This document shows positions 22,357-31,555 of a stretch of 64,000 bases of DNA, piece by piece (position 1 is the first letter of the stretch; every line of letters begins with the position of its first letter). Under the pieces are notes generated by a model, which worked only from the letters and a program-made list of their open reading frames with translations, had not been told where the DNA came from and made no database searches. The stretch is from the NCBI RefSeq assembly GCF_024832785.1, contig NZ_CP116615.1, forward strand, positions 3,410,001 to 3,474,000, given 5' to 3'. Source of the stretch: Fontisphaera persica. Its GTDB lineage: Bacteria; Verrucomicrobiota; Verrucomicrobiia; Limisphaerales; Fontisphaeraceae. A program made the position numbers and the translations under genes.

Positions 22357-23697
22357 TCAAGGGGTCCTTAACGCGCCAAAAAGCAGGCCGCTGACCGTTG
22401 CAAAAACGATGACCATGACCACATAGGCCACCGTTTTCCGCGTCCCCAGAATCTGGCGCAATACCAGCATGCTGGGCAGCGACAACGCGGGTCCAGCCAA
22501 CAGCAGCGCCAGCGCCGGGCCTTGCCCCATCCCTGATCCCAACAAACCCTGCAGGATGGGGACCTCGGTCAGGGTCGCAAAATACATGAAAGCTCCCACC
22601 ACGGCCGCGGCAGCATTGGCCCATAGAGAATTGCCGCCCACCGCCTGTTGTACCCAGGCCGAGGGAATCAGCCCTTCGTGCCCCGGCCGCCCCAGGAGAA
22701 CGCCCGCCGCAAACACCCCTGCCAGCAACAAGGGAAAAATCTGTTTGGCCAGCGCCCAGGTGGCATCCAGCCAGGCGCGGCCTTCGCCCGGATGCCGCCA
22801 ACACAAGATTGCCAGGCCGGCGCTGCCCGCAGCAAAAGCCACGGCGGGCGAGGCGGGAAAAGACCAGGCCAGGATGGCGACTCCTGCCGCCGTGATGGCC
22901 AAACTCCGCCACGCGAAGCCAAACCACAGCCCCAAAACCACGCCCAACCCCGCGGCACTGAGCGCAGTTAAAGCCCATTTCCATTCATGCACCGCCGCCA
23001 CCCATCCAGTTGTTTCTGCCGGCTTGCTCCAATTGGCAAAGATTAGCACCGCAGCCATGAGCGAAAAAAAACCGGCATTTTGCGCCAGGGACCGCCTTGC
23101 CTCCGGACGCGGCAGGCGTGCGGATGCCCGGGCGCGGGCGCGTTCCTCGCGGCGGAATAACAGATGCATGCCCAAACCAATCACCACGCTGAACCACACC
23201 GCCCCCACCGCCCGGCCCACGCCAAGGGACCAGCCCAAAACCCGCGCCGTTAAAATGACCGCCAGGATGTTGATGGCCGGCCCGGAATACAAAAACGCAA
23301 TGGCTGGCCCCAGCCCGGCTCCGCGCTGCCAGATGCCGCCAAAAAGCGGCAGCACGGTGCAGGAGCATACGGCCAAAATGCTGCCGGAAACCGAGGCCAC
23401 GCCATAAGCCAGGGGCTTGGGCGCCGCCGGCCCCAGATACCGCATCACCGCCGCCTGATTGACAAAGACACTGATGCCGCCCGCGATGAACAGGGCCGGA
23501 ATGAGACACAGGAGCACGTGCTCCCGAGCATACCACCCGGTCATGGCCAGGCCCTCCTGCCAGGCCCGCTCCACCCGCGGCTCCTCCACCGGCAGAAAAT
23601 ACAAAAGCAGAAATGCCGCCAAAAACGCGGCGAGGATTTTCATCTCCTTGCCGCGTACTTCGCCGGCTGACTCAACCTGCAATTTAATGGAAGACAT
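22357..23697 (-). CDS. ArsP/DUF318-type permease (UPF0718 family metal or metalloid efflux)
   Basis: A 446-residue polytopic membrane protein with about ten hydrophobic segments in two halves. The first half bears the family motif SVSGSILAVCSCTVLPLFGG with the CSC pair, and LYSGPAINILAVILT; the second half bears LLAGPALSLPSMLVL at the equivalent place. Relatives export trivalent organoarsenicals or Cu/Zn. A cytoplasmic loop rich in Arg/Glu (about residues 165-195) separates the halves. It lies 43 bp downstream of an ArsR-family repressor gene on the same strand, with an operator-like palindrome at 23702-23717 directly upstream of its ATG. This supports metal(loid)-responsive efflux; the ion is undetermined. 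Confidence 0.87.
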   Translation of the reverse strand: MSSIKLQVESAGEVRGKEMKILAAFLAAFLLLYFLPVEEPRVERAWQEGLAMTGWYAREHVLLCLIPALFIAGGISVFVNQAAVMRYLGPAAPKPLAYGVASVSGSILAVCSCTVLPLFGGIWQRGAGLGPAIAFLYSGPAINILAVILTARVLGWSLGVGRAVGAVWFSVVIGLGMHLLFRREERARARASARLPRPEARRSLAQNAGFFSLMAAVLIFANWSKPAETTGWVAAVHEWKWALTALSAAGLGVVLGLWFGFAWRSLAITAAGVAILAWSFPASPAVAFAAGSAGLAILCWRHPGEGRAWLDATWALAKQIFPLLLAGVFAAGVLLGRPGHEGLIPSAWVQQAVGGNSLWANAAAAVVGAFMYFATLTEVPILQGLLGSGMGQGPALALLLAGPALSLPSMLVLRQILGTRKTVAYVVMVIVFATVSGLLFGALRTP

Positions 23698-23701
23698 ATT
23701 A

Positions 23702-23717
23702 TTAGTTAATTAGCAAA
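23702..23717. promoter_or_regulatory. ArsR-type operator candidate before the permease gene
   Basis: Read on the minus strand the site is TTTGCTAATTAACTAA. It matches 13 of 16 positions of the site upstream of the repressor gene (24053-24068) and ends 5 bp before the permease ATG. A site here could allow the permease to be regulated separately from arsR. Confidence 0.6.
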
Positions 23718-23740
23718 ATAGCATAATATAGGATAAAAAA

Positions 23741-24040
23741 TTATTTCCGCCCCTCTTGCACGGCCGCTAAGCATTGGAAAAAGTTCATCACGCAAGGCGT
23801 CACCAGCCGGTAAAAGACCTGCGTCCCCCGTTTTTCATCCTCCACAATGCCCGCATGTTTCAATAAAGAAAGATGACGGGAAACGGTGGGCATCTCGCTG
23901 CCGACCAGTTTGGCCAGCTCGCACACACAGCGCTCGCCTTTGGACAATTCCGTGACCATGAGCAGGCGCCCGGGATGCGCCAGGGCCTTGAAGACGAGGG
24001 CTTGTCGCTTAAAATCCGCCGGTTTGGGCGTATTGTTCAT
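23741..24040 (-). CDS. ArsR/SmtB-family metal-responsive repressor
   Basis: A 99-residue winged-helix regulator. The helix-turn-helix is in VGSEMPTVSRHLSLLKHAG, preceded by the ELxVCEL-type metal site, here GERCVCELAKLV, with two cysteines that fit an As(III)/Cd/Pb-type thiolate site on helix 3; a third cysteine lies in VTPCVMNFF. It likely represses itself and the downstream permease until metal(loid) binds. A near-palindrome 13 bp upstream of its ATG is the probable operator. Confidence 0.92.
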   Translation of the reverse strand: MNNTPKPADFKRQALVFKALAHPGRLLMVTELSKGERCVCELAKLVGSEMPTVSRHLSLLKHAGIVEDEKRGTQVFYRLVTPCVMNFFQCLAAVQEGRK

Positions 24041-24052
24041 TACATGACAAAC

Positions 24053-24068
24053 TTAGCTAATTGGCTAA
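24053..24068. promoter_or_regulatory. ArsR-type operator candidate before the repressor gene
   Basis: TTAGCTAATTGGCTAA is a near-perfect 16-bp palindrome with one mismatched pair, 13 bp upstream of the repressor ATG, in an AT-rich patch that contrasts with the surrounding DNA. The same motif recurs at 23702-23717. Confidence 0.65.
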
Positions 24069-24269
24069 TAATGTCAAGTCTTGACCCCAAGTTTCTCCTT
24101 TTGCACCGAAAGTGTGGCTAAAGGTTGGAGCGCCACCTTCCGAGGCTTTTGGGCCTTTTCGTTAAGTATGTTCGGACCCTCTCCAAAAGAAGTCCGCTGA
24201 AAATACCTCAAGTTTCCTTCCTTTCCTGCCGAAAGAGAAACTGGGGCAGAAGAAAATTATGCCTCACTC

Positions 24270-26312
24270 ATGAATTATTGGCAGTCTAAGACTGGCAGCA
24301 GCTTTATTAGTGTTCAAGTCCGGGCACTGGTATTTTTGGCTTTTTGTGCCGTGGCCGCTCCCATGGTGGCGGATACCAATCCTCCGGCTCCGGCAACGGC
24401 AGGAGGGCCTGCGCTATTGGAACTGGAGCTCGAGCAGTTGCTGCAAATGCGGGCGGCCACGGTGGAAGGGGCCTCACGTCGGCGGCAACCCACTCGTGAA
24501 GCGCCTTCGGCGGTGACCCTTTTGACCGCCGAGGATATTCAGAAGAATGGCTGGCGCACATTGTCGGATGCTTTGAACAGTGTGCCCGGGTTGTACACCA
24601 CCAATGACCGGGATTTCTGGTACCTGGGAGCGCGCGGCTTCAACCGGCCCGGAGATTATAATTCCCGTTACCTCCTGCTCATCAACGGGCACCGTTTGAA
24701 CAACGCCATTTACGACAGCGCGCCCATTGGGCCGGAGTTTCCCGTGGACTTGGACTTGATTGAGCGCATTGAGGTAATTCCCGGCCCTGGAGCGGCGATG
24801 TATGGCAACAACGCCTTTTTTGGGGTCATCAATGTTATCACTAAAAAAGGCCGGGACATCGGCGGCATGGAAGCCTCAGCCAGCATGGGCAGCCATGTCT
24901 CCGGCCATGGACGCTTTACTTACGGCCAGTATTTTACCAATTCCGGGGTGGAACTGCTGCTCTCGGGCGACTATGGCTACGACCCCGGACCCCGGCAATT
25001 GACCTTCACCGACGCCACCGGCAAGGTCTGGACTTCGCGGCGGCGAGACTCCGTGGAAACGGCGCGCTTTTTTAGCTCACTAAGCTGGCGGGACTGGTCC
25101 TTGAGCGCCGCCGTCAGCCGTGCACCCAATGGCATTCCCAGCGGGGTTTATGCCAGTGATCCAGGGGATCCCCGGGCAGAATGGGAGGAGCAATATGGAT
25201 ATCTGGAGGTCAAGTGGGATCACTCGTGGGATGAGGACAGGCGGCTGACGGCCCGGGGTTATTACAACTATTATCGCTACCTTGGCTGGTATCCTTACGG
25301 GGGCATTCGCGCCGACGATCGAGCGGTTGGCCAGGATTATGGCGCGGAGGTCCAATTCAACGCCAAGTTATGGGAGCGCCATGTGCTCACGCTGGGAGCC
25401 AACCTCCACCATGCCTTTCATCAGGACCAGTCTTATGAGGACGAAACGGGCTTCATCTACCTGAATGATCATCAAGACCATTGGCTGGCGGGTGGCTTTG
25501 CCCAAGTGGAATGGCTGTTGCACCGCACCCTGCGGCTCAACACCGGCGGGCGCCTGGATTATCACAGCCGGCACGGAGCGGAGGCGAATCCGCGGCTGTC
25601 CCTGATTTATCAACCGTGGCAGCGGACAACTTTCAAGGCCCTGTATGGCACGGCATACCGGGCGCCCAGCGTGTTTGAAATGTACTACGGCTTTGATGGC
25701 GGTTATGTCATTAATCCGGCCCTGCGCCCGGAAACCATCACTACCTACGAGCTGGTGTGGGAGCAGCAGTTTACGCGGCGGCTGGCTTTGCGGATGTCCG
25801 CCTATTATTACTGCATCGAGGAATTAATTTCCATGGAGCCCCAGCCTGGCACCGGCTACCTGCAATTCCAAAACCTGGACCATGTGCGGGCCACCGGCCT
25901 GGAAACCGCCTTGGAATACCGGCTGCCGCACGGCTGGCGCTGGCGCGGCAGTTACGCGGTGCAACGCAACCGCATGCGGGGGGTGATGATGGATAATTCA
26001 CCGCAACACCTGGTCAAAAACCACCTCTCCATCCCCCTTTACCGGGATCGTTGGTGGCTCAATGCCGAATGCCTTTACTCCAGCGACACCACCACCGGCA
26101 TGCCGGGGGTCGAGGCCAACGACTATTGGCTCTTGAATCTGACACTGTGGAGCCGGCCCTTGGGCAAAAACCTGGAATTTTCCGCCAGTGTTTACAATGT
26201 GTTAGGGCATAAATATGCCTATCCGGTGGGGGACGAGTACTGGGCCAATTCCGGCCCTTTGATGGAGTTCTCAGGCCGTGAATTTCGGGTGAAGTTCACG
26301 TATCGCTTTTGA
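24270..26312 (+). CDS. TonB-dependent outer-membrane receptor
   Basis: A 680-residue protein with a signal-like N-terminus (VRALVFLAFCAVAAPMVA). The plug domain is at residues about 70-185: APSAVTLLTAEDIQKNGW, LSDALNSVPGLYTTNDRD, INGHRLNNAIYDSAP and IERIEVIPGPGAAMYGNNA. A 22-strand-type barrel follows and ends in aromatic FRVKFTYRF. The start of the mature chain (LELELEQLLQM) resembles receptors associated with YfiR-like and sensor genes. The substrate is unknown. The next gene starts 7 bp after its stop, so this is the first gene of a three-gene operon. No cobalamin riboswitch motif was seen in the roughly 200-bp leader. Confidence 0.93.
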   Translation: MNYWQSKTGSSFISVQVRALVFLAFCAVAAPMVADTNPPAPATAGGPALLELELEQLLQMRAATVEGASRRRQPTREAPSAVTLLTAEDIQKNGWRTLSDALNSVPGLYTTNDRDFWYLGARGFNRPGDYNSRYLLLINGHRLNNAIYDSAPIGPEFPVDLDLIERIEVIPGPGAAMYGNNAFFGVINVITKKGRDIGGMEASASMGSHVSGHGRFTYGQYFTNSGVELLLSGDYGYDPGPRQLTFTDATGKVWTSRRRDSVETARFFSSLSWRDWSLSAAVSRAPNGIPSGVYASDPGDPRAEWEEQYGYLEVKWDHSWDEDRRLTARGYYNYYRYLGWYPYGGIRADDRAVGQDYGAEVQFNAKLWERHVLTLGANLHHAFHQDQSYEDETGFIYLNDHQDHWLAGGFAQVEWLLHRTLRLNTGGRLDYHSRHGAEANPRLSLIYQPWQRTTFKALYGTAYRAPSVFEMYYGFDGGYVINPALRPETITTYELVWEQQFTRRLALRMSAYYYCIEELISMEPQPGTGYLQFQNLDHVRATGLETALEYRLPHGWRWRGSYAVQRNRMRGVMMDNSPQHLVKNHLSIPLYRDRWWLNAECLYSSDTTTGMPGVEANDYWLLNLTLWSRPLGKNLEFSASVYNVLGHKYAYPVGDEYWANSGPLMEFSGREFRVKFTYRF

Positions 26313-26319
26313 GTCGGCC

Positions 26320-26928
26320 ATGTGGGTCAATGGGCACAAGTTCACGACAGCAAAAGTCGCTCTCCACCGGCGGGGGGGATGGTTGTTGCTCTGCGCGCTG
26401 TTGAACGGGGAGCCGTTGCCGGCCGCTGAACCCGCCGGACCCACGGCCGCTGAATTGAAAGCCGCCGTGGTGTGTCAGTTGACCAAATTTGTGGAATGGC
26501 CTGAGCCGCCGTCCACCAACGCGCCCCTGGTCATCGGCGTGGTGGGCGAAAGCCCCCTAATCACCGCTTTGGAGCGCCTGTTGCAGTCGGCCCAAAACTC
26601 ATTCAGCGGGTCATTGACAATTCAGAAACTAGTCCCTAGCTTATCCCGTTCAAACGCAGCTTCGTGCCATCTGGTGGTACTGGGTGAGCGTTTGCCGGAG
26701 CGCTCCATGACCTCCATCATCGAGACCCTGAGAGGCCAGGGCATTCTTACAATAAGTGATGCCCAGGGATTCACCCGCCATGGGGGCATGGTAGGATTGG
26801 GCATGGAGGACCAACGGGTACAAATTGAGGTCAACCTGGCCGCCTGTGAGCGGGCGCGCATTCGGTTCAGCTCCCGCCTGCTGCGGCAGGTCAAAATTGT
26901 TTCCCCGCCCGCCCCGAAGTCGCCTTAA
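26320..26928 (+). CDS. YfiR-like periplasmic protein (DUF4154)
   Basis: A 202-residue product with an N-terminal signal-like stretch (GGWLLLCALLNGEPLPAAE). The family pattern is AAVVCQLTKFVEWPE, then VIGVVGESPLITALE, HLVVLGERLPE, ILTISDAQGFTRHGGMVG and VQIEVNLAACERARIRFSSRLL. YfiR proteins sense periplasmic conditions and inhibit a membrane signalling partner (the diguanylate cyclase YfiN in Pseudomonas). Here the probable partner is the downstream membrane-bound hybrid kinase, which starts 5 bp after the stop. Confidence 0.88.
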   Translation: MWVNGHKFTTAKVALHRRGGWLLLCALLNGEPLPAAEPAGPTAAELKAAVVCQLTKFVEWPEPPSTNAPLVIGVVGESPLITALERLLQSAQNSFSGSLTIQKLVPSLSRSNAASCHLVVLGERLPERSMTSIIETLRGQGILTISDAQGFTRHGGMVGLGMEDQRVQIEVNLAACERARIRFSSRLLRQVKIVSPPAPKSP

Positions 26929-26933
26929 TATCT

Positions 26934-29339
26934 ATGGCCGCCCTCGCCACATGGTTTAAGAACTTGTCCCTGGCCCGCAAGCTGGCCTGGTTGACCATGG
27001 CCATGGTGTTTATGGCAGTTGGTATCTGTATGTTGACGGGTCTGATGGTGGAGGTGTCATCTATGCGCCGCGAAGCCCAGCAACGGTTCACGGCGCTGGC
27101 TGATGTCCTGGCCCAGGAATGCGCGGCTTGTCTGGCCTTTGATAATGCACAGGATGCCCGCGAAGCACTTAGTGCCTTGCGCCAGGATGCTGATATTCAA
27201 GCGGCCTGGGTCCTCAAAACAGACCGCAAAGTTTTTGGCGAATACCAAAGGAATTCCACCTCTGCCCGGCCCTTGCCGACTCCTGTCACATCGCACGTCT
27301 CCCTCTTTGAATTTCATCGGGTTATTGAACAGCCCATCAAGTTACAGGACAAACTTTTGGGCTGGCTGGTCTTGGATTGCAGTCTGCACACCTACTGGGC
27401 ACGGATGGGCCTCCGTGCCGCGGGAATGTTTTTAACCATGAGCCTTGCCCTAGCTGTCACCTGGCTGGCCCTGCGGCGGCTGCTGCGGCCGGTGATGGCG
27501 CCCATTCTGGAATTGGCCTCGTTGTCCCAGCAGGTTTCCCAAAACAACAATTACACCTTGCGCGCCCCCCCGGCGGGCAACGATGAGGTGGGCCAGCTCG
27601 TCACCGCCTTCAACCACATGCTCGAGGCCGTGCAATCCCGCGACGTTGAACTGGAGCGGGCGCGGGCCACGCTCGAGCAGCGGGTGCAGGAACGCACTGC
27701 GGAATTGCAGCGGGAAATCATCGAGCGCCGCCAGATTGAAGAGGAATTGCGCCTCTCGGAGCAGCGCTTTGCCCAAATCTTCCGTGCTTCTCCGCTACCC
27801 ATCATCCTGCGCGGTCTGGAGAATCACCGGGTCGTCGAGGCCAATCAAAGTTTTCTCCAGTTGTTTGGCTACACGCGGGAGGAGGTGTTGGGCCGCACCA
27901 TTGAGGAACTGGGATTAAACGCCAATCCCGCCCAAATCAAGGAACTGACCGAAATCGCCAAGAAGAAGGGGCGCATCCGCGAATTTGACATTCAATGGCG
28001 CGGCAAGGGGGGACGCGCGGGCACAGGGCGGATATTTGCTGAGGTGATAGAGTGGGTCAAGGAGCCTTGCTTGATGGTGATGGTTTATGACACCACCCAG
28101 CAGACCAAGATGGAGCACCAGTTGCGCCACGCGCAAAAGATGGAAGCCGTGGGCCAACTGGCCGCCGGCGTGGCGCATGACTTTAACAACATTCTCACCA
28201 TCATCCAGGCCAACGCTTCGCTGGGCATCAGCGAACCCAACTTGGACCCGGTGATCAAGGATTGTTTGGAGCAAATCAGCATCGCTGCGGACCGGGCGGC
28301 CGCGCTGACCCGGCAGTTGCTGGCCTTCAGCCGGAAGCAGTCCATGCAGACCCGCGAGGTGGACTTGAACCAGTTGCTGGTGGATTACGTGCGCATGTTG
28401 CAACGGGTGGTCACGGAAAAAACCAACGTCCAGTTCAATCTGACTCCGGAGCTTCCTCCCATCGTGGCCGATCCCACCATGGTGGAGCAGGTGTTGACCA
28501 ACTTGGCCTTGAACGCGCGCGATGCCATGCCGCAGGGGGGGACGCTGACCATTGCCACCGAGGAGGTGGAATTCGACCAGAATTTTGCGCAACACCATCC
28601 GCACGCCCGGGCGGGGCGTTTTGTGCGGATGCAGGTGGCGGATACCGGGGTCGGCATCCCGGCGGAATTGCTGCCGCGCATCTTTGACCCCTTCTTCACC
28701 ACCAAAGACGTGGGCAAAGGCTCCGGTCTGGGTCTGGCGGCGGTGTACGGCATCCTGGATTTGCATGGCGGCTGGGTGGAAGTGGAGAGCGAGGTGGGCC
28801 GGGGCACCACCTTCAGCGTGTTCTGGCCGGTGTCCACCAGCCCGCAAGGCCAGCCGTTGACGGCAAATGACCGGACGGCCATCCGGGGCGGCAATGAATG
28901 CATCTTGTTGGTGGAGGATGAACCCGCCGTCCGCGGCATCGCCCGCCACGTGTTGAAGAAATATGGTTATTCGGTGGTGGAAGCCATCAGTGGCAAGGCG
29001 GCCTTGCGCCTCTGGCCGGCGTTGCAGGAGAATGTGCACATGGTGGTCACCGATGTGGTCATGCCGGACGGCATCTCCGGCCGGCAATTGGCCGAGGAAT
29101 TGCGCCGCTCCAAGCCCTGGTTGCCGGTGTTGCTCATCAGCGGCTACAGTCCGGAACTGGCCGGTTTGGATGCGCATCAGATGTCCGGCTGCAAATTCCT
29201 GCCCAAGCCGTTCAAACCTGCGGAATTAGCCCGCCTGGTGCGCGAGATGATTGACGAAGCTCAAGTCGGCAAACCGGGCAATGGCAAGGGCAAGGGCAAG
29301 GGAAATGGCAACGGCGAAGGTCAACTCCCTGGTTCATGA
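26934..29339 (+). CDS. Membrane hybrid sensor histidine kinase/response regulator
   Basis: An 801-residue protein. A first transmembrane helix at about residues 13-38 is followed by a periplasmic CHASE8-like sensor (QRFTALADVLAQECAACLAF), a second helix at about 160-182, HAMP and a coiled coil (about 185-280), a PAS domain (about 285-400), HisKA with phospho-acceptor His415 in GVAHDFNNILTII, a HATPase (NLALNARDAMPQGG, VADTGVGIP, GKGSGLGLAAVYGI) and a receiver domain with Asp707 in VVTDVVMPDG. The C-terminus is a Gly/Lys/Asn-rich tail (about 780-801). The CHASE8 sensor together with the upstream YfiR-like protein suggests that the periplasmic protein controls this kinase and couples receptor status to transcription. 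Confidence 0.92.
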   Translation: MAALATWFKNLSLARKLAWLTMAMVFMAVGICMLTGLMVEVSSMRREAQQRFTALADVLAQECAACLAFDNAQDAREALSALRQDADIQAAWVLKTDRKVFGEYQRNSTSARPLPTPVTSHVSLFEFHRVIEQPIKLQDKLLGWLVLDCSLHTYWARMGLRAAGMFLTMSLALAVTWLALRRLLRPVMAPILELASLSQQVSQNNNYTLRAPPAGNDEVGQLVTAFNHMLEAVQSRDVELERARATLEQRVQERTAELQREIIERRQIEEELRLSEQRFAQIFRASPLPIILRGLENHRVVEANQSFLQLFGYTREEVLGRTIEELGLNANPAQIKELTEIAKKKGRIREFDIQWRGKGGRAGTGRIFAEVIEWVKEPCLMVMVYDTTQQTKMEHQLRHAQKMEAVGQLAAGVAHDFNNILTIIQANASLGISEPNLDPVIKDCLEQISIAADRAAALTRQLLAFSRKQSMQTREVDLNQLLVDYVRMLQRVVTEKTNVQFNLTPELPPIVADPTMVEQVLTNLALNARDAMPQGGTLTIATEEVEFDQNFAQHHPHARAGRFVRMQVADTGVGIPAELLPRIFDPFFTTKDVGKGSGLGLAAVYGILDLHGGWVEVESEVGRGTTFSVFWPVSTSPQGQPLTANDRTAIRGGNECILLVEDEPAVRGIARHVLKKYGYSVVEAISGKAALRLWPALQENVHMVVTDVVMPDGISGRQLAEELRRSKPWLPVLLISGYSPELAGLDAHQMSGCKFLPKPFKPAELARLVREMIDEAQVGKPGNGKGKGKGNGNGEGQLPGS

Positions 29340-29480
29340 CCGGGAATCAAGGGCCGCGCAAACTCCCTCTGCCTCCCAGGCTGCTATTCAATCCTTTGCG
29401 TCGTGGTCCCCTTTCGGGATGCTCTGGCGCTTGAGTCTCCACTATTGCAGAGGCGGGGCGGGGATGGCATTCTGGGCCGT

Positions 29481-30167
29481 ATGAGGATGAAACTTTATTT
29501 GGGTCTGGCGGCGGTGGTCGCGGTGTTGGGCGGGTGGGGTTGTGCCACGGCTCCCCGCGGCGGCGCAGCGCCCAGTTTGACGGCCGGAGCCAATGGCGAC
29601 TTTCCCGGCTGGCGGTCTTTTAGTGAACAAAGCGACACTGCCCTGGCGGCTGTGTGGCGGATGGAGACCAACGGGGTGCTCACCTGCCGGGGCACTCCCA
29701 AGGGGTACCTTTTTACGGAAAAAGACTACACCAACTTCAAAATCGAGCTGGAATGGCGGCTGCCCCCCGGCGCGACGCAGAACCACGGCGGCATCCTGGT
29801 GCGGCTGACGGGCGCCCACAGCATCTGGCCCCGCAGCCTCGAGTTTCAGTTGAATCAGGGCCAGGCAGGGGACTTCTGGGGGCTGCGCGGTTTTGTATTC
29901 ACCGGCCCGGAAGACCGTTATCGTGTGCTGACCGACACTCCCTTTGGCACGCTCCGGCATCTGCGGCGTTTTCGCGACATGGAAAAACCGGCCGGGCAGT
30001 GGAATCGTTTTGAGGCGGTGGTCCAGGGGGATACGGCCGTCCAAAAAATCAACGGGGTAACGGTCAATCGCGCGGTGGGCTGCGATGTGGTGGCCGGCAA
30101 AATTGCGCTGACTGCGGAAGGGGAGGAAATCCAATTCCGCAATGTCCGCATCACGCCCCTGCCTTGA
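29481..30167 (+). CDS. DUF1080 (3-keto-disaccharide hydrolase family) lipoprotein
   Basis: A 228-residue product with a lipoprotein signal (VVAVLGGWGC, cysteine about residue 20). The DUF1080 jelly-roll pattern is clear: GDFPGWRSFSE, GVLTCRGTPKGYLFTEKDY, NFKIELEWRL, NHGGILVRL, SLEFQLNQG, and IQFRNVRITPLP at the end. The fold is related to laminarinase/concanavalin-like lectins and members are very abundant in Verrucomicrobia and planctomycetes; some cleave 3-keto-glycosides. ATG 29487 is an alternative start. It runs into the DUF1343 gene 30 bp downstream. Confidence 0.88.
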   Translation: MRMKLYLGLAAVVAVLGGWGCATAPRGGAAPSLTAGANGDFPGWRSFSEQSDTALAAVWRMETNGVLTCRGTPKGYLFTEKDYTNFKIELEWRLPPGATQNHGGILVRLTGAHSIWPRSLEFQLNQGQAGDFWGLRGFVFTGPEDRYRVLTDTPFGTLRHLRRFRDMEKPAGQWNRFEAVVQGDTAVQKINGVTVNRAVGCDVVAGKIALTAEGEEIQFRNVRITPLP

Positions 30168-30196
30168 GGGTCTGGGTGAAAAGCCGTCTGCCCACC

Positions 30197-31555
30197 ATGC
30201 CTGAGACTTGCCGGGAGGGCCACCGGGCCACCGGCGGACGAAGGGACGGCTGGAGTGCCGCAGGGTGGGGCTGGCTCCATAACTTTTGCCTGGTAGCGGC
30301 GCTGTTTTGGGCCGGTTGCCAAGGCCCCAAGCCACAATATACGGAACCAAGGACGGAAAGCCCCAGAATGGCCTCCGTTACTGCTCCGGCGGCTGCGTCC
30401 CGGCCGCCGCGGGACACTCCTCCCCCCGCGCCGCGGCGCGTGCTCAATGGCATAGACGTGCTCAAGCGGGAAGGATTTGCGCCTTTGCGCGGGCTGCGGA
30501 TTGGTCTGATTACCAATCACACCGGCACGGACCGGCAGCGCAATCCCACGATTGACCTGCTGTATCAGGCTCCGGGCGTAAAACTGGTTGCCCTCTTCAG
30601 TCCCGAGCACGGGTTGCGGGGCACGCTGGATGAAAAAGTGGCGGACGGCGTGGACAGCCGCACCGGCCTGCCGGTGTACAGCCTCTATGGGACGCGCCAA
30701 AAACCGGCGCCGGAACAATTGAAAAACCTGGATGCGCTGGTATTTGACATTCAGGACATTGGCTGCCGTTTTTACACTTACATTTCCACGCTGGGTTTGT
30801 GTCTGGAGGCGGCCGCCAACGCCGGGCTTAAGTTCTTTGTGCTGGACCGCGTCAATCCGATTGGCGGGGTGCTCATCGAGGGGCCGGTGTATCGCGGGGA
30901 GCCGCAGTTCGTGGCTTTCCATGCGCTGCCCATTCGCCACGGGTTGACGGTGGGCGAGCTGGCGCGGTTGTTCAAGCAGGAGCGCGGCTGGCATGTGGAT
31001 TTGGCGGTGGTCCCCGTGGAGGGCTGGCGGCGGGAGGATTGGTATGATACCACCGGCCTGCCGTGGATTAATCCCTCGCCCAACATGCGCTCCCTGACGC
31101 AGGCCGCGCTGTATCCGGGCGTGGGCCTGCTGGAGTTTGCCGTATCTGTGGGCCGGGGCACGGACACCCCCTTTGAAGTGGTGGGAGCGCCGTACATCAA
31201 CGATGTGGAGCTGGCGGAGGCGTTGAATCAGGCCGGTCTGCCGGGAATCCGCTTCATTCCCGTGCAATTCACACCCACGGCCAGTGTCTTCAAGGGACAA
31301 CGCTGCGGCGGAGTGAATCTGCTGGTCACAGACCGCCACCGCTTGCGCCCGGTGGAAGTGGGGATGCTCCTTATCCAGACGCTTTACCGGCTTTATCCCA
31401 AGGATTTCGCCATCGAAAAAGTCCACACGCTGCTGCTGGACCGCGACGTGCTGGAGGCCATCCGGGCTGGACGCCCGCTGGCTGAAATCCGCCAAAGCTG
31501 GCAGCCCGCCCTGGAGGAGTTTGCGCGGCGGCGCCAGGGTGTGCTGCTCTATTGA
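30197..31555 (+). CDS. NamZ-like exo-beta-N-acetylmuramidase (DUF1343, GH171) lipoprotein
   Basis: About 452 residues with a lipobox (ALFWAGC) after a long N-region and a Pro/Ala-rich linker (about 55-85). The DUF1343 core begins at NGIDVLKREGFAPLRG and includes GLITNHTGTD, FSPEHGLRG, VFDIQDIGCRFYTYISTLG, FFVLDRVNPIGG and WINPSPNMRS. NamZ, the characterised member of this family, releases terminal N-acetylmuramic acid from muropeptides in cell-wall recycling. A TTG start overlapping the DUF1080 stop (30164) is possible, but ATG 30197 keeps a better-sized signal region. The pairing with a DUF1080 lipoprotein suggests a cell-surface glycan-degradation role. Confidence 0.87.
   Translation: MPETCREGHRATGGRRDGWSAAGWGWLHNFCLVAALFWAGCQGPKPQYTEPRTESPRMASVTAPAAASRPPRDTPPPAPRRVLNGIDVLKREGFAPLRGLRIGLITNHTGTDRQRNPTIDLLYQAPGVKLVALFSPEHGLRGTLDEKVADGVDSRTGLPVYSLYGTRQKPAPEQLKNLDALVFDIQDIGCRFYTYISTLGLCLEAAANAGLKFFVLDRVNPIGGVLIEGPVYRGEPQFVAFHALPIRHGLTVGELARLFKQERGWHVDLAVVPVEGWRREDWYDTTGLPWINPSPNMRSLTQAALYPGVGLLEFAVSVGRGTDTPFEVVGAPYINDVELAEALNQAGLPGIRFIPVQFTPTASVFKGQRCGGVNLLVTDRHRLRPVEVGMLLIQTLYRLYPKDFAIEKVHTLLLDRDVLEAIRAGRPLAEIRQSWQPALEEFARRRQGVLLY

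Follow-up and report, generated by a model that had tools for sequence, protein, structure and literature searches.

The 64,000-nucleotide stretch of DNA analysed here (the window), from Fontisphaera persica, contains three adjacent genes that encode a TonB-dependent receptor, a YfiR-like protein and a hybrid histidine kinase with a CHASE8 sensor domain (Table 1). The trio recurs as a conserved unit in relatives, and residue covariation supports docking of the YfiR-like protein on CHASE8. We propose that the three proteins form an outer-membrane-to-cytoplasm signalling unit in which the receptor, by way of YfiR, switches the kinase and the signal is passed on by phosphotransfer, and we give this reading about an even chance of being correct.

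Table 1. Features of the trio, the predicted YfiR–CHASE8 contact and the loci with YfiR–kinase fusions (window coordinates).
Feature	Position	Strand	Details
TonB-dependent receptor	24270..26312	+	680 aa; Plug E=4.2e-19, barrel 2.7e-34 (Pfam)
YfiR-like (DUF4154, YfiR/HmsC) protein	26320..26928	+	202 aa; Pfam 1.7e-31
Hybrid histidine kinase	26934..29339	+	801 aa; TM - CHASE8 - TM - HAMP - PAS - HisKA - HATPase - receiver
CHASE8 sensor domain	27063..27374	+	kinase residues 44-147; Pfam 5.7e-17, AlphaFold2 model, fold search
Kinase D74 to E77, predicted YfiR contact	27153..27164	+	covariation with YfiR 189 and 186
YfiR R186 to R189, C-terminal helix, predicted CHASE8 contact	26875..26886	+	covariation; model helix 185-188
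YfiR-kinase fusion loci	L055, L059, L180, L240, L241, L242, L250, L286-L291, L303, L429

The receptor and YfiR genes are separated by 7 bp and the YfiR and kinase genes by 5 bp, and all three frames are open. An initial annotation of this DNA had described a tight operon, and its coordinates, strand and spacing proved correct. The gene identities that it assigned are upheld by Pfam, as is its statement that the CHASE8 sensor sits on a hybrid kinase rather than on a GGDEF enzyme: no GGDEF domain was found in the kinase by Pfam, with HisKA, HATPase_c and Response_reg in its place. Kinase and receiver motifs were recognized by eye, and the TM helices of the kinase were assigned from an AlphaFold2 model and by eye. 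A Gly/Lys/Asn low-complexity stretch (29277-29321) lies 3' of the receiver within the kinase gene. The N-termini of the receptor and the YfiR-like protein resemble signal peptides, as judged by eye.

The trio is flanked upstream by a divergent gene for an ArsP-type permease (22357-23697, minus strand). The genes next after the kinase encode a 3-keto-disaccharide hydrolase and then a NamZ exo-muramidase (30164-31555, plus strand), both assigned by Pfam. None of the six genes scanned from 22357 to 31555 encodes an OmpA-like (YfiB-type) protein. In FecA–FecR-type cell-surface signalling, a TonB receptor with an N-terminal STN domain works with a neighbouring FecR and sigma factor. Signalling across the envelope by a TonB receptor is the feature of that system that our proposal shares; the window receptor differs in that Pfam found Plug and barrel only, with no STN domain, and no FecR-type anti-sigma/sigma pair was found among the six genes scanned around the trio. 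A riboswitch was sought as a clue to the ligand, and Rfam at gathering cut-offs gave no match in the window. No small stand-alone Hpt protein was detected in the genome, where the five Hpt matches sit in open frames of 403-1517 aa. The genome holds one DUF4154 match and four CHASE8 matches, three of which are distant from DUF4154, so these three proteins either need no YfiR or have a partner far away. They lie outside the window, at G000:C1 1496525, 3155348 and 4026646.

The YfiR-like protein has the YfiR fold. Its AlphaFold2 model (pLDDT 91.4) matched YfiR entries or YfiB–YfiR complexes at PDB ranks 1-15, with TM-scores of 0.66-0.73 on the query. It differs from the YfiR proteins of the YfiBNR and HmsCD systems in the absence of the YfiR cysteine pairs. 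Among the pairs C71-C110 and C145-C152 of P. aeruginosa YfiR, the sole Cys counterpart is that of C110, namely C116 of the window protein (26665-26667), which makes redox control through YfiR cysteine pairs less likely here. C116 is at least 90% conserved in 60 sequences, and the position of its P. aeruginosa disulphide partner is not Cys in the window.

The model of kinase residues 1-250 (pLDDT 92.1) places a helix rising from the membrane (13-68), a turn, a second helix (72-84) and strands. It matched an integrative WalK model (E=9e-11) and, weakly, a CdgS9/LapD relative (9.4e-4), YycG (2.2e-3) and CitA (0.026). The initial annotation had offered structure prediction as a check on the CHASE8 fold; the modelled N-terminus supports a Cache/PAS-like sensor fold, while the name CHASE8 comes from Pfam and not from the fold matches.

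The three gene kinds are already represented in NCBIfam by models named after genes of Thalassolituus oleivorans: NF053590 (TOL_0244 receptor), NF053591 (TOL_0243 YfiR-like protein) and NF053592 ('YfiR-like protein-associated' histidine kinase). The window proteins score below all three cut-offs (179.9 against 645, 94.3 against 125 and 144 against 194 bits, respectively) and are relatives of that trio, not equivalogs; NF053590 is the best NCBIfam model for the window receptor. A Pseudomonadales locus with the same gene order (L442) passes two of the cut-offs (655.6 against 645 and 134.6 against 125) and nears the third (178.8 against 194, on a kinase cut by the locus end), which identifies the NCBIfam trio and the window trio as the same arrangement. 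The window trio is thus a divergent member of an arrangement already modelled in NCBIfam.

The trio shares with YfiBNR of Pseudomonas aeruginosa the YfiR fold, CHASE8 followed by HAMP, and an overlapping predicted docking site. NF007423 (DgcN/YfiN) matches kinase residues 12-252, below its cut-off. The two systems differ in output, which is a hybrid kinase in the window and GGDEF in P. aeruginosa, and in neighbour, a TonB receptor here and the OmpA-like lipoprotein YfiB there. The replacement of GGDEF by a kinase is not new and has been in print since 2012: the available text of Malone 2012 (PMC3375315) states that divergent Yfi systems often carry, in place of GGDEF, GGDEF-EAL pairs, Hpt domains or sensor histidine kinases. 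It cites a system of Thauera sp. MZ1T in which, as in the window, a YfiR homolog accompanies a hybrid sensor kinase whose periplasmic domain is YfiN-like; the term 'TonB' has 0 occurrences in its main text. A search of the open-access literature, which covers few subscription journals, found no paper on the receptor–YfiR–kinase unit.

Covariation between YfiR and its downstream partner was analysed in relatives of the trio. YfiR and the N-terminal part of the downstream CHASE8 protein were aligned for 308 pairs, of which 12 were dropped for gaps, and mean-field direct couplings were computed over the remaining 296 (effective number 278). YfiR 186 and kinase 77 are the most strongly coupled inter-protein pair (z=8.85). 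The best 20 × 20 block, YfiR 174-193 by kinase 59-78, holds 14 couplings with z>3, against 8 in the next separate block. When partners were swapped among near neighbours in 24 runs, the block held no more than 4 couplings and the peak z did not exceed 6.78; for the true pairing the same script gave 13 couplings. At positions 186/77, K/R is paired with D/E in 160 of the 296 pairs, with the reverse in 5, two positive residues in 3 and two negative residues in 3. At the second pair, 189/74, a positive residue is matched with a negative one in 101. Both charge pairs are kept in the window (R186-E77 and R189-D74). Judged from the AlphaFold2 helix ends, kinase D74-E77 lies just past the end of the long helix, at the membrane-distal tip of CHASE8. 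These couplings suggest that the YfiR C-terminal helix docks on this tip, with the R186-E77 charge pair leading.

The predicted docking site overlaps the genetically mapped sites of the YfiR–YfiN pair. In the available text on P. aeruginosa YfiR, four positions (F151, E163, I169 and Q187) are reported to strengthen the interaction with YfiN. The first three align with window positions 158, 170 and 176, and Q187 would correspond to window 194 by extension past the alignment end; the coupled region includes YfiR positions next to or at F151, E163 and I169. On the YfiN side, the available literature reports that mutations in an AAVVF-type stretch abolish YfiR binding. Residues 65-69 of the window kinase read ACLAF, a motif of this type with its Phe, and F69 is invariant in 59 sequences; read from the motif rather than from a tool alignment, F69 is the probable counterpart of YfiN F70. 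Among the top 40 couplings, 14 link the published conserved YfiR surface with kinase 56-80, against 1.4 expected by area, and 10 link it with the remaining kinase, against 11.5 expected, for a surface set drawn up from the published description after the first covariation result, with residue limits that are our reading. Covariation and the genetics published for the Pseudomonas pair thus both back the YfiR–CHASE8 link drawn in the initial annotation.

The signal is weaker in subsets of the data. In the 254 kinase-type pairs alone, the block holds 10 couplings against 8 in the next best, and the expected surfaces account for 9 of the top 40. In split halves of an earlier set of 247 pairs, YfiR 186 × kinase 77 comes 4th in one half and 28th in the other out of 33,580, and several of the supporting contacts are not reproduced. 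Furthermore, a CHASE8 × receptor control, for which no contact is expected, gave a peak z of 8.75 and a best block of 9, and it too scored higher than with partners swapped. This indicates that the swap controls are too lenient and that shared ancestry accounts for much of the raw score height, so the argument for YfiR–CHASE8 docking rests on the coherent block on the right surface.

The receptor and YfiR were compared in the same way, first over 115 pairs and then over 176 triples with 18 swap runs. In the triples, YfiR × receptor exceeds YfiR × CHASE8 in peak z (9.08 against 8.73) and in top-ten mean (6.33 against 5.20) but not in best block (10 against 13), the receptor couplings being scattered. 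They exceed their swaps but are diffuse, and the CHASE8 × receptor control likewise exceeds its own, which shows that scores this high are no proof of contact. The YfiR × receptor signal may reflect either a real second contact or further inflation.

In the mechanism that we propose, the TonB-dependent receptor would provide the outer-membrane input and the YfiR-like protein would be the periplasmic go-between, its C-terminal helix on the CHASE8 tip holding the kinase in one signalling state. A ligand at the receptor would cause YfiR to be drawn off CHASE8, or to be altered on it, and the TM helices and HAMP would relay the change to PAS-HisKA-HATPase. The output would be phosphotransfer through the attached receiver and a further partner, not c-di-GMP from the kinase itself. 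The initial annotation had suggested a receptor-linked envelope-sensing circuit that uses phosphotransfer. The kinase and receiver domains, the conservation of the trio and the supported YfiR–CHASE8 link sustain part of this suggestion; we infer the receptor-to-YfiR step from gene order, and the envelope input, the sign of regulation, the ligand and the output are likewise proposals.

The main rival reading dispenses with any touch between receptor and YfiR. Here YfiR would carry a ligand: a scarce compound brought into the periplasm by the receptor would be bound by YfiR in the manner of a small binding protein, and loaded YfiR would regulate CHASE8, for which binding-protein-dependent sensor kinases provide a model. 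The receptor–YfiR covariation, which lacks a coherent block, is consistent with this reading, as is the fold search with the YfiR-like model, in which a Rhodothermus marinus substrate-binding protein came next after the YfiR entries (ranks 16-21, TM-scores 0.47-0.63 on the query) and V. cholerae protein 3lkv stood at rank 24 (TM-score 0.62). Against it, we know of no ligand for any YfiR protein. The classical system, in the available parts of PMC4655355 and PMC3375315, works by sequestration through YfiB. Also in its favour, the accessible text of PMC6304351 implicates the T. oleivorans receptor TOL_0244 in the uptake or detection of long-chain alkanes. TOL_0244 is similar to OmpS, for which a role as alkane sensor has been described (PMC6304351, PMC5174103, PMC9788540, each as available); OmpS of Alcanivorax dieselolei is a TonB-family receptor said to start alkane sensing and is 40.3% similar to TOL_0244 (PMC6304351). 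The window receptor lies so far under the NF053590 cut-off that the alkane ligand is not transferable to it. Overall, we consider a ligand-carrying YfiR rather unlikely.

The distribution of the trio bears on whether the receptor belongs to the unit at all. Among 288 genomes from the window's phylum, 34 contain DUF4154, 38 contain CHASE8 (36 over the cut-off) and 33 contain both (Fisher p=7e-37); the sole DUF4154-only genome (G086) encodes a YfiR–kinase fusion without a detected CHASE8 domain (L055). All 51 DUF4154 places in the phylum were retrieved: a CHASE8 kinase follows in 43 cases, CHASE8-GGDEF in 1 and another CHASE8 protein in 2, while 2 are YfiR–kinase fusions and 3 have none of these, and a receptor lies directly upstream in 31 of the 43 places with a CHASE8 kinase. 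A GTDB contig scan with a kinase-type YfiR query gave 154 loci, of which the best 80 were taken. By record title, mostly those of metagenome bins, these 80 come from Gemmatimonadetes, Acidobacteria, Bacteroidetes, Fibrobacteres, Verrucomicrobia, Gamma- and Deltaproteobacteria and others, and 64 of their 78 distinct YfiR domains stand in the order receptor, YfiR, CHASE8 kinase. The initial annotation had allowed that members of the trio might be scattered in relatives; the neighbourhood survey instead found the same order and strand, which marks the trio as a conserved unit.

With further surveys, in which part of the places were fetched, the set grew to 404 loci and 380 distinct YfiR domains. 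Domain calls in relatives relied on profiles built up from the proteins of the window and on a GGDEF pattern, not on Pfam. Downstream of the 380 domains lies a CHASE8 kinase in 258 cases and CHASE8-GGDEF in 22, a ratio that is not unbiased beyond the phylum because the query was of the kinase type and higher-scoring places were mostly taken first. The others comprise CHASE8 proteins cut by the locus end (17), other CHASE8 proteins (11), kinase fusions (16), edges (6) and none (50). A receptor, scored as a receptor match ending within 1.2 kb upstream where the locus leaves room to tell, comes first in 199 of the 253 kinase cases that could be tested and in 6 of the 21 such cases with GGDEF (p=4e-6). 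Where more than 900 bases remain after the kinase, an ORF with a receiver domain follows 44 of 73 non-hybrid kinases against 12 of 37 hybrid ones. One locus (L075) carries a tandem pair of receptor–YfiR–CHASE8 kinase units, each followed by a receiver-PAS-kinase-receiver gene. An apparent receptor–YfiR fusion in L098 was rejected, as its frame passes through several stretches of unknown bases and, past the first of them, no longer resembles a receptor.

These counts can also be read with the receptor as a co-regulated target only, where YfiR and the CHASE8 kinase sense a periplasmic state and the kinase controls receptor expression. The 54 of 253 testable kinase cases without a receptor directly upstream fit such an arrangement, as does the sevenfold higher level of TOL_0244 protein on n-C28 alkane given in the available text of PMC6304351. 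Mere co-regulation, however, needs neither the position of the receptor ahead of the pair on the same strand nor its preference for kinase-type over GGDEF-type output, and both argue against this alternative, which we consider unlikely.

In a FastTree phylogeny of the 380 YfiR domains, with many forks unresolved, the kinase/GGDEF label requires 7 changes and the YfiR–kinase fusions 1-2. The window YfiR sits in a starred set of 164 tree rows (138 kinase, 25 other and 1 GGDEF), its exact place being unsure because of its long branch and a highest identity of 36%. That divergence, together with scores below the NCBIfam cut-offs for all three proteins, might point to a decayed or chance gene arrangement with no joint function in the source genome, but the open frames, the kinase and receiver motifs seen by eye, the retained predicted contacts and the conserved gene order make this very improbable. 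In the 16 fusions a hydrophobic, TM-like segment links YfiR to a kinase, in some cases with a receiver, and no CHASE8 was detected in them; 5 of the 16 come after a receptor. They show YfiR wired directly to a kinase, but not docking.

YfiR is known from the control of c-di-GMP in Pseudomonas, whereas most of the YfiR-like proteins collected here precede a CHASE8 kinase, usually behind a TonB receptor. This distribution raises the prospect, which we hold at slightly short of an even chance, of a widespread signalling route, so far uncharacterised, that would link the outer membrane with the cytoplasm: a TonB-dependent receptor would signal to a histidine kinase by way of YfiR as an adaptor. 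Such a route would be an alternative to FecA–FecR–sigma signalling and, among the loci collected, commoner than the YfiBNR c-di-GMP form that gave the family its name. The predicted charge pair makes the YfiR–CHASE8 step directly testable by swap mutants. If the receptor does signal through YfiR, the unit would offer a general read-out of what TonB receptors meet, and it may provide a path into the cell for the reported alkane-sensing receptor OmpS.
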